Assembly (NCBI RefSeq): GCF_030818795.1
Contig: NZ_JAUTAY010000001.1
Span: forward strand, 2,790,001-2,854,000
Source: Microbacterium sp. SORGH_AS_0862
GTDB lineage: Bacteria > Actinomycetota > Actinomycetes > Actinomycetales > Microbacteriaceae
Direction: 5' to 3'
Length of the DNA: 64,000 nucleotides
Numbering within the stretch: position 1 is the stretch's first letter; every line of letters starts with the position of its first letter. The notes below the pieces were generated by a model, which was not told the origin of the DNA, ran no database searches, and was given only the letters and a program-made list of their open reading frames with translations. Both the position numbers and the translations under genes were made by a program. Positions 1-64,000 of the stretch are shown piece by piece.

Positions 1-1040
1 GTCGTGAGGCCCACGTGGAACGCGTAGATGGCCTCGTGGTAGCGCCAGAGGCTCGCCAGCGCTCCGCCGAGACCCTCGGATGCGGCCGCGCGCCCGTATC
101 CGCCGGCGCTCGCCAGCCAGCCGGTCCACGACGCGAGGTACACGATCGCCGAGATGGGCACGAGCAGCACGAACGTCGCCGCGCCTTGGCGCACCGCATC
201 CGCCGGCCACTGCACGACGCCGAGTCGGCGCCGGGCGAGGGCGTCGGTGACGACGACGTACAGACCGAGAGCGGCGAGCACGTACAGACCCGACCACTTC
301 ACGGCCGTCGCGGCGCCGACGGCTGCTCCGGCGGCGATGAGCCATGGCCGGTTCCAGAGCAGCGGGCCCCAACCGGGAGCAGGCTCCTGCTCGTCGCGCG
401 GGGTGAGTGCCCGGCGCAGGCGTTCCAGATGCGTACGGCGATCGAGGAGGACGAACCAGAACCCGAGCGCCACGAACAGCGCGAGGATGCCGTCCAGGAG
501 CGCGATGCGGCTGAGCACGATGGCGAGGCCGTCGATGGCCATCAGGCCGCCGGCGATGGCGGCCACGGCCGTCGAACCGGTCAGGGTGCGGGCGATCAGA
601 TAGACGACGAGCACGGTGAGCGTGCCGGCGGTGGCCACCGCCACCCGCCACCCCACCGAGTCGCCGGAGCCGAACAGCCACATCCCGAGCCCGATGAGCC
701 ATTTGCCCAACGGCGGATGCACGGAGAAGCTCCCCGTGACGAGCGGGGCGGGGACCTGGCCCTCGGCGAACAGCGCGTCGGCTCCGTCGGGCCAGTTGGC
801 CGTGTAGCCCAGCAGCCACTGCGACCACGCGTCCTTCACGTAGTACGTCTCGTCGAAGACCAATGACGACGGCGTTCCGAGGTTCGCGAAGCGCAGGATT
901 CCGGCGAACAGCGTCAGCAGGACCGGTGTCCACACCTGCAGGCGTCGGTCGAGGACGCGGGAGCCGCGGACGCGGTCGGAGAATGCGTCGAACGCCGAGC
1001 GGCGCGGCGGGGGCGCAGTCGGCGGGGCGCTCGAGGTCAC
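1..1040 (-). CDS. pmt: Protein O-mannosyltransferase, PMT/GT39 family (3' end outside window)
   Basis: Transfers mannose from polyprenyl-phosphate-mannose to Ser/Thr of secreted proteins, at the membrane. The reverse strand is open from a GTG at 1040 to the window edge. The start region has an early membrane segment (about residues 36-50), then the PMT signature VFDETYYVKDAW (acidic pair at residues 63-64, first luminal loop), then HPPLGKWLIG and a series of hydrophobic helices. The family is usually 500-550 residues, so about 345 are seen here. It sits head to head with rsmI, as pmt does in Mycobacterium. The start is chosen because it precedes a proline-rich cytoplasmic tail of normal length; an exact start is not proven. 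Confidence 0.85.
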   Translation of the reverse strand, partial: MTSSAPPTAPPPRRSAFDAFSDRVRGSRVLDRRLQVWTPVLLTLFAGILRFANLGTPSSLVFDETYYVKDAWSQWLLGYTANWPDGADALFAEGQVPAPLVTGSFSVHPPLGKWLIGLGMWLFGSGDSVGWRVAVATAGTLTVLVVYLIARTLTGSTAVAAIAGGLMAIDGLAIVLSRIALLDGILALFVALGFWFVLLDRRTHLERLRRALTPRDEQEPAPGWGPLLWNRPWLIAAGAAVGAATAVKWSGLYVLAALGLYVVVTDALARRRLGVVQWPADAVRQGAATFVLLVPISAIVYLASWTGWLASAGGYGRAAASEGLGGALASLWRYHEAIYAFHVGLT

Positions 1041-1051
1041 GCCCTCCACCT

Positions 1052-1057
1052 TATGCT
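1052..1057 (+). promoter_or_regulatory. -10 element of rsmI, leaderless start
   Basis: TATGCT ends six bases before the GTG start of rsmI. This is the spacing expected when transcription begins at the start codon, and no Shine-Dalgarno sequence is seen. Confidence 0.55.
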
Positions 1058-1063
1058 GGGGCC

Positions 1064-1882
1064 GTGATCATCCTTGCGGCGACTCCGATCGGAAACCTCG
1101 GGGACGCCACCCGCCGACTCGTCGAGGCGCTGGAGGCCGCGACGGTGATCGCCGCGGAGGACACCCGCACGACGCAACGGCTCCTCGCGGGACTGGGAGT
1201 GTCGAACCGCCCCCAGCTGATCGCCCTGCACGACCACAACGAGAAGCAGCGCGCCGCTGAGCTGGCACGCCGAGCGGCGACCGAGGACGTGCTCGTGCTC
1301 AGCGACGCCGGCATGCCCACGGTCAGCGACCCGGGGTACGGGCTCGTGGCGGAAGCCGTGGCGCAGGGCGTCGAGGTGATCGCGCTGCCCGGGCCTTCCG
1401 CCGTGCTGACAGCCCTCGCGGTGTCGGGCCTTCCCACCGACCGGTTCGCCTTCGAGGGCTTCGTGCCGCGCAAGCAGGGGGAGCGCAGGGCGATGTTCGC
1501 CCGGTTGGCGGCCGAGGAGCGCACGCTGGTGTTCTTCGAAGCGCCGACCCGCCTCGCGGACACCCTCGCAGACCTGGCGGACGCCTTCGGCGCGGACCGC
1601 CCGGCATCCGTCTCCCGAGAGCTGACGAAGCTCTACGAGCAGACCTTGCGCGGCCCGCTCTCGGAGCTCGTGGCGTGGGCGGCCGACGGCGTGCGCGGCG
1701 AGCTCGTCATCGTCGTCGGCGGGGCGGAGCGCGCCCGCGTCGCCTTTCCCGACGCCGTCACGCAGGTGCTGGAGATCGTCCGCGCCGGAGTTCGTCTGAA
1801 GGATGCGGCCGGCGAGGTCGCCGAGGCGACGGGTCACTCCTCGCGCGAGCTCTACCAGGCGGCGCTCGCCGTGCGCGGCTGA
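1064..1882 (+). CDS. rsmI: 16S rRNA (cytidine1402-2'-O)-methyltransferase RsmI
   Basis: Methylates the 2'-hydroxyl of C1402 in the decoding centre of 16S rRNA with S-adenosylmethionine. The 272-residue product has the tetrapyrrole-methylase-type fold and its hallmark blocks: ATPIGNLGD at the N-terminus, AAEDTR, SDAGMPTVSDPG and LPGPSAVLTALAVSG, followed by GFVPRK and ELTKLYE. Length is typical. The GTG at 1064 is chosen because the protein then begins directly at the first beta strand and a -10 hexamer lies six bases upstream. Divergent pmt is the classic actinobacterial neighbour. A hairpin follows the stop codon. Confidence 0.95.
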   Translation: MIILAATPIGNLGDATRRLVEALEAATVIAAEDTRTTQRLLAGLGVSNRPQLIALHDHNEKQRAAELARRAATEDVLVLSDAGMPTVSDPGYGLVAEAVAQGVEVIALPGPSAVLTALAVSGLPTDRFAFEGFVPRKQGERRAMFARLAAEERTLVFFEAPTRLADTLADLADAFGADRPASVSRELTKLYEQTLRGPLSELVAWAADGVRGELVIVVGGAERARVAFPDAVTQVLEIVRAGVRLKDAAGEVAEATGHSSRELYQAALAVRG

Positions 1883-1897
1883 CGCGGGCGCCCGGCC

Positions 1898-1935
1898 GGA
1901 CGCCGACTCCGCACCGCGGATGGGAGCCGGCGTCC
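1898..1935. terminator. Probable bidirectional terminator hairpin
   Basis: Arms 1898-1910 and 1923-1935 pair over 13 positions with one mismatch. They lie in the 57-base gap between the convergent genes rsmI and the galactanase. No clear T-run is seen, as is common at high GC. Confidence 0.55.
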
Positions 1936-62291: not shown

Positions 62292-62294
62292 ACT
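62289..62294 (+). promoter_or_regulatory. -10 element of eno
   Basis: TAGACT overlaps the O-methyltransferase stop region and would give a leader of about 50 bases. Confidence 0.5.
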
Positions 62295-62349
62295 CGGAAG
62301 CGGACCGATGTCGCTCCGAGATCACACCCCCAAACTCAAGGAGTCCCCT

Positions 62350-63630
62350 GTGGCACTTATCGAGGCTGTAGGCGCGCGCGAAATCCTCGACTCGCGCGGT
62401 AACCCGACCGTCGAAGTGGAGGTGCTCCTCGATGACGGTGTCGTGCAGCGTGCGGCAGTGCCCTCCGGCGCATCCACCGGCGCGTTCGAGGCGTACGAGC
62501 TGCGCGACGGCGACAAGAGCCGCTACGGCGGCAAGGGCGTGCTGAAGGCCGTCAACGCCGTCATCGACGAGCTCGGCCCGGCGATCGAGGGTGTCGAGGC
62601 GAGCGAGCAGCGCGTCGTCGACCAGATCCTCATCGAGACCGACGGCACCGAGAACAAGTCGCGCACCGGCGCGAACGCGATCCTCGGCGTGAGCCTGGCC
62701 GTTGCCAAGGCCGCCGCCGACTCGGCCGACCTTCCCCTGTTCCGCTACCTCGGCGGCCCGAACGCGCACCTGCTGCCCGTTCCGCTGTTCAACGTCATCA
62801 ACGGTGGCGAGCACGCCGACAACGGCATCGACTTCCAGGAGTTCTTCCTGGCGCCCATCGGCGCTGAGACCTACGCCGAGTCGCTGCGCTGGGGCACCGA
62901 GGTCTACCACGTCCTCAAGGGCGAGCTGAAGGCCGCCGGCTACAACACGGGCCTGGGCGACGAGGGCGGCTTCGCCCCCGACCTCCCCAGCAACCGCGAG
63001 GGCCTCGACTTCCTGCTCAAGGCCATCGAGAAGGCGGGCTTCACACCCGGCTCCGACATCGCCGTGGGCCTCGACGTCGCCGCGACCGAGTTCTACAAGG
63101 ACGGCGTGTACACCGTCGAGGGCAAGCCGTGGACCCCCGCGCAGCTCGTCGACTACTTCGCCGACCTGGTCGCCAACTACCCGATCGTCACGATCGAGGA
63201 CGCCCTCGCCGAGGACGACTGGGAGAACTGGAAGGCCATCACCGACGCCATCGGCGACAAGGTGCAGCTCGTCGGCGACGACCTGTTCGTCACCAACCCG
63301 AAGCGCCTGCAGCAGGGCATCGACCTCGGTGTCGCCAACGCGCTCCTGGTGAAGTTCAACCAGATCGGCTCGCTCACCGAGACGCTGGATGCGGTCAGCC
63401 TCGCGACCCGCAACGGCTACCGCTCGATGTGGTCGCACCGCTCGGGCGAGACCGAGGACACCACGATCGCCGACCTCGCCGTCGCGACCAACGCGGGTCA
63501 GATCAAGACCGGTGCGCCCGCTCGGAGCGAGCGCGTCGCGAAGTACAATCAGCTTCTGCGCATCGAAGAGGAACTGGGTGAGGCGGCTGTGTTCGCCGGC
63601 CGAGCCGCGTTCCCGCGCTTCAAGGGCTGA
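62350..63630 (+). CDS. eno: Enolase
   Basis: Dehydrates 2-phosphoglycerate to PEP. 426 residues. [17 protein letters not shown] loop, [11 protein letters not shown], metal ligands Asp in [10 protein letters not shown], Glu in [11 protein letters not shown] and Asp in [10 protein letters not shown], catalytic Lys in [12 protein letters not shown], and [21 protein letters not shown] 62350 follows AAGGAG. Next to the ftsB/divIC-like gene, as in Mycobacterium. Confidence 0.97.
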
Positions 63631-63652
63631 GTGACGACGACACACCGTCACT
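63630..63652 (+). repeat. Short hairpin after eno stop
   Basis: AGTGACG and CGTCACT pair over 7 bases around a 9-base loop, directly after the eno stop codon and just before the larger 20-base hairpin. Confidence 0.5.
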
Positions 63653-63702
63653 GAACGAGAAGGAGGAGCCGTGGCAGCACGAACGGCTCCTCCTTCTCGT
63701 TC
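63653..63702 (+). promoter_or_regulatory. 20-base perfect stem-loop over ftsB-like ribosome site and start
   Basis: Arm 63653-63672 is the exact complement of 63683-63702, with a 10-base loop. The 5' arm holds the AGGAGGAG ribosome site (63661-63668) and the first two bases of the GTG start. Free transcription would hide the start; alternatively it is the eno terminator placed inside the next gene. Confidence 0.75.
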
Positions 63703-64000
63703 CCGGCGTTCTTCGGATGCGCCCCGCCGCCGCGTCGACGTGCGCGACTGGCTCGGCGGCATCCGGCTCTCGGGTTTCATGATCATCATGCTGGGCCTGG
63801 TCGTTCTGGGCGTGCTCGTGCTCGTGCCGACCGTGGGCACCTATCTCGACCAGCAGCAGCGGATCGCGGCGCTCCAGAACTCGGTGCAGCTCACCGAGTC
63901 GCAGATCGCCGATCTGCAGGCGCAGAGCGAGCGCTGGGACGACCCGGCGTACATCACGACGCAGGCGCGTGAGCGGCTGTACTACATGAATCCGGGCGAG
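63671..64000 (+). CDS. FtsB/DivIC-like septum protein (3' end outside window)
   Basis: Small bitopic division protein that joins FtsL and FtsQ at the septum. The frame is open from GTG 63671 to the window edge, 110 residues. Basic Ser/Arg-rich tail (about 1-35), one transmembrane helix (about 36-56, GFMIIMLGLVVLGVLVLVP), then a heptad coiled coil (QQRIAALQNSVQLTESQIADLQ) and the conserved PAYITTQARERLYYMNPGE ending of DivIC. A strong ribosome site is buried in a hairpin. Confidence 0.9.
   Translation, partial: MAARTAPPSRSRRSSDAPRRRVDVRDWLGGIRLSGFMIIMLGLVVLGVLVLVPTVGTYLDQQQRIAALQNSVQLTESQIADLQAQSERWDDPAYITTQARERLYYMNPGE

Follow-up and report, generated by a model that had tools for sequence, protein, structure and literature searches.

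In the 64,000-nucleotide stretch of the Microbacterium sp. SORGH_AS_0862 chromosome analysed here (positions 2,790,001-2,854,000 of G000, a single contig of 3,504,869 bases; this stretch is referred to below as the window), as in the chromosome at large, the octamer GGATGCGG is repeated far more often than expected, and we infer that it may act as a self tag resembling a DNA uptake sequence (DUS), written in different dialects by different groups of species. Our confidence in this interpretation, which would imply DNA uptake, a protein that reads the word and natural competence, is evenly balanced. An uptake-sequence model fits best because of the density of the word, its use of both strands, the existence of dialects that exchange in place, an island written in a foreign dialect and the codon cost borne by genes. 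The first-pass annotation of the window had named DNA uptake among several candidates and chosen none; it is now judged the best supported, if unproven, and the others are scored lower. A wider proposal, held a shade less firmly, is that the Microbacteriaceae would own a DNA-uptake self-recognition system, the first outside the Neisseriaceae and Pasteurellaceae, that species-group dialects would partition gene exchange within one genus, and that the present genome would be mid-way through re-tagging from GGATGCCG, a word that differs by one base, to GGATGCGG.

An exact string count placed 56 copies of GGATGCGG and 48 of its reverse-strand form, CCGCATCC, in the window, 104 in all; an earlier count by eye had the first number right and the second too low, at about 43. 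Markov models of order 1, 3 and 4 predict 6.6, 8.8 and 19 copies, respectively; the higher expectations at orders 5 and 6 (54 and 80) arise because models of those orders already hold most of the motif. At order 3, no window octamer present 15 times or more is as strongly over-represented as GGATGCGG (z ~32). The whole chromosome contains 4,263 copies, 2,138 forward and 2,125 reverse, as compared to 207 (102 + 105) for a control in which the letters of the octamer were read backwards and counted likewise. The strong over-representation claimed at first pass is thus borne out, an order-3 model expecting 8.8 copies in the window rather than approximately 100. A sample made up of the window and 40 further stretches, each of 20 kb, spans 864 kb (24.6% of the chromosome) and contains 1,120 sites where 125 were expected at order 3 (8.9-fold); the density in the genome is approximately 1.2 per kb. 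As in DUS systems, this is a short non-palindromic word present at about one copy per kb, far over chance and on both strands. Longer forms were enriched further (CGGATGCGG 12.8-fold, ACGGATGCGG 17.7-fold); the true word is therefore approximately nine or ten bases long with soft edges, and its extended consensus is approximately (A/G)CGGATGCGG. Most one-base variants occurred near expectation in this genome, the clear exception being GGATGCCG with 340 copies in the sample against 142 expected (2.4-fold); GGATACGG and GGATGTGG reached approximately 2.3- to 2.5-fold on small counts. The only feature common to the flanks of the 104 window copies was a C preceding the word.

Gene calls came from a simple script that relies on codon usage (760 genes, 83% coding), and assignments based on it are approximate. 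By these calls, 909 of the 1,120 sampled sites lay in genes (1.27 per kb), 207 between genes (1.40 per kb) and four at gene edges. All six reading positions exceeded the independent-codon expectation, with 12, 52 and 399 sites observed against 0.9, 2.9 and 35 expected for GGATGCGG, and 21, 262 and 163 against 0.9, 4.7 and 61 for CCGCATCC. Aspartate was encoded by GAT in 400 of 464 cases where this completed the word, compared to 99 of 459 in Asp-Ala(GCG) pairs with neither flanking G; contexts that match in part lay in between (73/189 with the first G only, for example), and contexts completing the sister word GGATGCCG yielded 80/169. Similarly, alanine was encoded by GCA in 262 of the 315 cases completing CCGCATCC, compared to 110/445 before TCC and 73/533 before TCG, in both cases without a preceding CC. 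The data clearly show that the DNA word, rather than the protein, is favoured and that synonymous codons are bent to form it; like the DUS systems, it occupies genes and gaps alike by synonymous accommodation. The original suggestion that the motif and not the protein is selected is upheld. An explanation by codons or protein composition was rejected, as the frequencies of codons and amino acids, which had been considered as a possible full explanation, did not account for the word in the independent-codon or the matched-context codon test.

The comparison across the Microbacteriaceae that had been recommended at first pass was carried out in 299 genomes of the family, where GGATGCGG ranged from below its control (G051, 61 versus 122) to more than 20-fold above it (G161, 1,770 versus 85, and the present genome). 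Seven other genomes of the same genus that were examined hold 299-872 copies versus 4,263 in the present one, because those genomes use the dialect GGATGCCG. Across 198 genomes of the genus, the present one included, GGATGCCG had a median of 16.8 times its control, being at least 5-fold in 175, at least 10-fold in 155 and below 5-fold in 23; the highest count was that of G579 (6,838 copies in 4.4 Mb, 34-fold), and the present genome has 1,446 (6.9-fold). The version found in the window is the minority one within the genus. GGATGCCG rather than GGATGCGG was also the word of named relatives sampled around the Mfd gene (80 loci, the best of 583) and of two genomes of the same genus; it numbered, for instance, 42 versus 6.0 (L036), 40 versus 6.1 (L031) and, in G106, 73 versus 9.3 over 40 kb. 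In GGATGCCG genomes, certain variants altered only at the last base were also raised 1.7- to 2.7-fold, indicating a softer edge of the word. In 184 genomes of the order from outside the family, GGATGCGG had a median of 1.28 times control, with 150 genomes at or below 2-fold and 177 at or below 3-fold; seven exceeded 3-fold, three of them 4-fold (4.2, 6.0 and 6.9).

In a quick tree of Mfd comprising 46 rows, with dialect labels assigned by threshold, the present genome, L001 and L038, all using GGATGCGG, formed one group (Shimodaira-Hasegawa-like approximate likelihood ratio test, SH-aLRT, 99) nested in a group of 17 rows (SH-aLRT 99). The other rows of that larger group, inside which the branching is only partly resolved, are 13 users of GGATGCCG and one without a dialect label, and eight more same-genus users of GGATGCCG lie outside it. 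As the GGATGCGG group is nested among users of GGATGCCG, its dialect is most simply taken as a derived switch within the genus. Dialects that track phylogeny around a common core, here GGATGCGG and GGATGCCG within Microbacterium, are again a property of DUS systems. Gulosibacter hominis (L037), distant on the Mfd tree, also uses GGATGCGG.

When the window was aligned to 29 Microbacterium-type loci, a G in the present genome stood opposite a C in the relative in 54 of 112 pairs in which the other seven bases matched, compared to 454 of 2,316 pairs at the remaining words of the form NNNNGCGG, which end in GCGG; in the opposite direction the figures were 54/139 versus 454/3,128. These aligned pairs share sites and history among loci and are not independent. 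Orthologous sites thus tend to exchange one version for the other in place. Only 55 of 469 GGATGCGG sites of the present genome were identical in the relative, compared to 20% for GC-matched words, and 55 of the 86 GGATGCGG copies of the relatives were also GGATGCGG in the present genome; this combination of low conservation of own sites and frequent agreement at the relatives' copies is consistent with a recent gain of GGATGCGG in this genome.

A stretch of approximately 13 kb (G000:C1:2462196-2475286; L180/L095) contains 20 copies of GGATGCCG and a single GGATGCGG. It first stood out in the stretch sampled at 2,464,050, the first half of which is dominated by GGATGCCG, and its extent was read with the two adjoining stretches included; the 18 kb before it contain 20 GGATGCGG and 10 GGATGCCG, and the corresponding counts in the stretch that follows are 10 and 3. 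The longest run of a single dialect in the sample (nine copies) falls in this island and was matched but never exceeded in 1,000 permutations of the labels (mean 4.7), the region having been chosen after the data were seen. The island has genes for zinc uptake (ZnuA-type and ABC-3) together with a frame of 2,110 residues without a Pfam match, and judging by its dialect was probably imported from a relative that uses GGATGCCG. Sister dialects, the in-place swap, the island and the minority status of GGATGCGG were all unforeseen in the first-pass annotation.

Strong words beginning with GGA were also seen elsewhere: GGAGGCG in genus g36 and Frigoribacterium, GGACGCC in Rothia and GCAGGATC in genus g48, as judged from 40-47 kb of each (with larger samples of g36 and g48). 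The likeness is no more than suggestive. In Frigoribacterium and g36 (L025, L033, L146-L147, L172-L173, L193-L195), GGAGGCG-type words occur at approximately 0.8-1.3 per kb; in g48 (L152, L153, L198), GCAGGATC was counted 34 times versus 5.2 in 40 kb, on both strands; and in Rothia nasimurium (L069, L073), GGACGCCG, one base off the Microbacterium word, was counted 26 times versus 2.8 and GCGGACGC 20 times versus 1.7 in 47 kb. The Rothia-like CGGACGCC was rejected as a wider dialect, as none of 149 genomes sampled from the order exceeded approximately 3.3 times control. Microbacterium halophytorum (L017) displayed a different word, TCATCCGG (19 versus 1.8), with just three GGATGCGG and six GGATGCCG in 23.6 kb. 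A survey for a single word per group, covering 26 genomes (20-40 kb of each) and 12 named groups, gave no clear word in several of them, among these G013, G030, G024, Curtobacterium, Brevibacterium and Cellulomonas. In Arthrobacter/Pseudarthrobacter, CGACGGCG was found 119 times versus 29, which illustrates how large an excess a poorly fitting order-3 model can produce; weak hits in other groups were therefore left uncounted.

One possible mechanism starts from a sequence-reading protein, perhaps within an uptake machine composed of ComEA/ComEC and a Tad/Flp pilus, that would prefer DNA carrying the word. Alleles with the word would then be taken up and recombined more often, and the word would fill the genome over time. 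In the clade of the present genome, the specificity of the reader would have drifted from GGATGCCG to GGATGCGG, at which point re-tagging would have begun, with remnants of the old dialect staying behind. Components of a DNA uptake machinery are encoded: ComEC is present in 50 of 50 family genomes and in the present genome is adjoined by ComEA, and a Tad-type locus at approximately 2,489,600 encodes a TadA-type ATPase, a short DUF4244 protein and a TadE-like protein. By our own reading, the DUF4244 protein appears to resemble the Flp N-terminus of Micrococcus luteus quoted in PMC6370729, a text according to which that species has comEA and comEC and requires Flp pili for transformation. T2SSE-type ATPases were present in all 30 genomes tested (6 + 24). 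Since ComEC and the ATPases occurred in all the genomes tested, the machinery does not track the word and is useless as a discriminator; as far as tested, no machinery listed here separates word-rich from word-poor genomes. In four Microbacterium phages of 35-46 kb, GGATGCGG was counted 3, 7, 7 and 8 times against 3.9, 2.9, 1.7 and 2.3 expected at order 3, and GGATGCCG 5, 11, 8 and 2 times against 4.9, 4.7, 2.5 and 3.2. These densities (0.07-0.23 per kb for GGATGCGG, 0.06-0.31 for GGATGCCG), taken without regard to the dialect of the phages' hosts, are below the 1.2 per kb of the present genome.

Several observations weigh against a self tag for uptake. The spacing of copies is no more regular than random, and regularity as a hallmark was rejected. 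Density varied between 0.2 and 2.1 per kb across the 41 sampled stretches; it is approximately 1.6 per kb within 800 kb of the origin and 0.9-1.1 per kb farther out, and correlates with distance from the origin (Spearman -0.51) and with GC content (+0.64), a gradient that the uptake model does not predict. The initial impression that no cluster exists therefore holds only roughly, given this range and the fall away from the origin. (One 20-kb stretch, G000:C1:633614-653613 (L104), has just four GGATGCGG and a lower GC content of 0.667, and is perhaps foreign or accessory.) Three of the four phages carry approximately 2.4-4 times the expected GGATGCGG, on counts of seven or eight. ComEC and T2SSE-type ATPases are also found in genomes without a clear word, and no ComP-like receptor was identified among the listed Tad and Com genes, no dedicated receptor search having been made. 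The small leading-strand excess of 53-55% described below for three genomes counts in the same direction. Finally, short pairs of copies (8-30 nt apart) in the present sample were inverted in 33 cases, 12 of them intergenic, and direct in 14, and the corresponding ratios in GGATGCCG genomes were 4:2, 2:2 and 11:5, a weak inverted excess; no such excess was seen in G211 (0:6) or G110 (1:4, 2:3), and G047 had no pairs. Inverted pairs, reported for DUS in PMC3630211, are thus a hallmark that is only weakly displayed, the excess being mild and missing from some genomes.

Among the alternative explanations, the one that survives best, improbable as we consider it, is a Chi-like signal: a helicase-nuclease of AdnAB/AddAB type would degrade DNA ends until it meets the word and then load RecA, the dialects following changes in its reading site. 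The word, being a G-rich octamer, does resemble several known Chi words, and two neighbouring frames of approximately 1,100 residues with PDDEXK_1 domains (2983660 and 2987226) could, by our own reading and with a domain that alone is non-specific, be an AdnAB/AddAB-like pair. Such pairs, however, occurred in six of six genomes tested, so their presence does not follow dialect, and RecC was found in none of six. With the origin placed by dnaA at 1,597,963, in broad agreement with the sign change of the GC skew, 596 sampled sites were leading and 524 lagging (53.2% leading); the best split of the circle gave 54.7%, which 7 of 100 shuffles reached. For GGATGCCG, leading and lagging copies were 140:116 in G106 and 96:81 in G215, and a small leading-strand excess may be common to the three genomes (832:721 summed, 53-55% each). 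This excess would favour a Chi-like role, but it is far under the approximately 75% polarity of E. coli Chi, 53% is about what G-skew alone would yield (an estimate rather than a computed value), and 1.2 copies per kb is several-fold the density of Chi in E. coli. FtsK-orienting sites, too, are expected to be strongly polar. Neither the strong replichore orientation of Chi nor a near-exclusive polarity toward the terminus, as in FtsK-orienting polar sequences (KOPS), was found, and strong polarity was rejected with the origin at dnaA; the near-equal use of strands therefore argues against both, in agreement with what the first-pass annotation had concluded from a slight strand bias.

Slightly less probable again is a word linked to methylation, of the kind exemplified by the highly iterated palindrome HIP1, in which the word would be made and kept by an orphan methyltransferase together with a repair bias coupled to it. 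HIP1 is very frequent and varies among lineages, with alternates tied to methyltransferases (PMC4390886). The products expected from C-to-T change at the central GC are in excess in the present genome (GGATGTGG 79 versus 35, GGATACGG 34 versus 14), and that excess is smaller in GGATGCCG genomes (23 versus 20 and 13 versus 7). The corresponding pattern for GGATGCCG in its own genomes is nevertheless unclean (GGATGTCG 160 versus 91, GGATACCG 6 versus 7), and GGATGTCG also reaches 186 versus 125 in the genome of the window, so that the cytosine-deamination signature for methylation is ambiguous. The word is, moreover, non-palindromic, GGATGCGG not being its own reverse complement.

A chromosome-organising site, whether FtsK-orienting, bound by a nucleoid protein or condensin-related, is more doubtful still. 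It would be in keeping with the higher density near the origin, but the strong polarity that an FtsK-orienting site should have is missing. The density of GGATGCCG remnants does not change with distance from the origin, and that of GGATGCGG rises with GC content as well, so that the gradient could be due to age or to foreign content. Hardly credible is that base composition or codon pairing produced the word as an artefact, an idea refuted as a full explanation, or that the word is a dispersed repeat like the repetitive extragenic palindromes (REP): a low-level excess exists in some genomes of other families (the seven of 184 above 3-fold), but an artefact fails the order-3 Markov, reversed-word, independent-codon and matched-context tests, and a REP-type repeat was rejected because the copies have no common flanks beyond the preceding C and 909 of 1,120 lie in genes, unlike an extragenic repeat. 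That GGATGCGG also occurs within the REP consensus of E. coli given in PMC12306157 is taken as coincidence.

By exact string count (1-based), the plus-strand copies of GGATGCGG in the window start at 78, 1801, 4285, 6249, 7078, 8036, 10845, 12664, 14338, 15939, 16719, 17331, 18221, 18882, 20940, 21273, 22393, 23422, 24451, 26832, 27177, 29843, 31546, 31583, 32658, 33454, 35039, 35429, 37522, 37584, 37687, 37751, 38760, 39495, 40284, 41290, 41617, 42478, 44104, 46293, 47672, 47681, 48222, 48759, 48909, 52491, 52800, 53483, 55093, 57440, 57998, 59133, 59771, 60157, 61688 and 63387. The minus-strand copies, read as CCGCATCC, start at 194, 3904, 8462, 8810, 11162, 12672, 13213, 13933, 13940, 16370, 16594, 17809, 22293, 24358, 24652, 26489, 26885, 27886, 29089, 30601, 30619, 30937, 31508, 31853, 32450, 36033, 36360, 37035, 37539, 38720, 40173, 42240, 43176, 44080, 45725, 46304, 48176, 48962, 50058, 50940, 52971, 54973, 57071, 58751, 59515, 60699, 61125 and 61545.

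Convergent gaps carry 2.93 sites per kb as compared to 1.0-1.6 in the remaining gaps, and two inverted pairs of the window lie in such gaps. The first (44073..44118; CCGCATCC at 44080, GGATGCGG at 44104), between open reading frames (ORFs) 43317-44069(+) and 44532-46013(-), is predicted to form a long hairpin (minimum free energy, MFE, -38.8 kcal/mol), with no T-run in the stretch examined. The second (37512..37556; GGATGCGG at 37522, CCGCATCC at 37539), between ORFs 35633-37267(+) and 37782-39464(-), has a predicted hairpin of MFE -36.5 kcal/mol. A third pair (46293..46311; GGATGCGG at 46293, CCGCATCC at 46304), near the start of an L25-type ORF (46248-47039 by first start codon) and intergenic under the script gene calls, is likewise predicted to fold (MFE -21.5 kcal/mol). 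For each of the three, 0 of 200 shuffles folded as low. Folding of four inverted pairs gave strong predicted hairpins in all, with a short T-run after one (L118). Within ORF 11471-13042(+) the two words abut in an inverted pair, GGATGCGGCCGCATCC (12664..12679), and a direct pair, GGATGCGG-C-GGATGCGG, with one base between the copies, occupies 47672..47688 (+) within ORF 47169-47753(+).

To our knowledge, two proteobacterial families are the established cases in which DNA carries thousands of short words as self tags. The literature searched held no report of an actinobacterial genus in which a word spread through the genome changes dialect by one base, nor did it link uptake words to Microbacterium or Actinobacteria; most subscription papers lay outside the search, so that absence is no proof. 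If the uptake interpretation is true, sequence-gated sex would have arisen independently in another phylum, that of the Gram-positive actinobacteria, natural competence would be predicted for Microbacterium, and the dialect would be a ready marker of imported DNA. A dialect switch could then be watched under way, with both versions in one chromosome. If instead the reader were AdnAB or a methyltransferase, the same data would describe a Chi of an unusual kind or a HIP-like word that is not palindromic.

Of the systems with which the word may be compared, the natural transformation of Micrococcus luteus has its counterpart here in the comEA, comEC and Tad/Flp-type pilus genes, which are also present in the genome studied, and the passages of its description consulted (PMC6370729) mention no uptake word for that species. 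The cyanobacterial HIP1 is alike in its extreme iteration, lineage variation and alternates (PMC4390886); HIP words are palindromic, whereas the Microbacterium word is not. Chi sites of RecBCD/AddAB are G-rich octamers, over-represented and lineage-specific. The Microbacterium word is likewise all of these, but it is much denser, only 53-55% of its copies are on the leading strand, and RecC was found in none of the six genomes tested. The uptake signal sequence (USS) of the Pasteurellaceae occurs at approximately one copy per kb. The Microbacterium word differs from it in that the window copies display no flanking AT-rich helper sites. It is like the USS in being, putatively, a genome-wide self tag (PMC12616744, PMC7811141). 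From the DUS dialects of the Neisseriaceae it is set apart by phylum, by its core (GGATGC rather than CTG), and by inverted pairs that are few and missing from some sampled genera. As described in PMC3630211 and PMC7371117, however, those DUS are similarly short non-palindromic words in thousands of genic and intergenic copies, with inverted pairs near gene ends and several dialects that follow the core phylogeny around a common core, and stretches of atypical dialect mark imported DNA.

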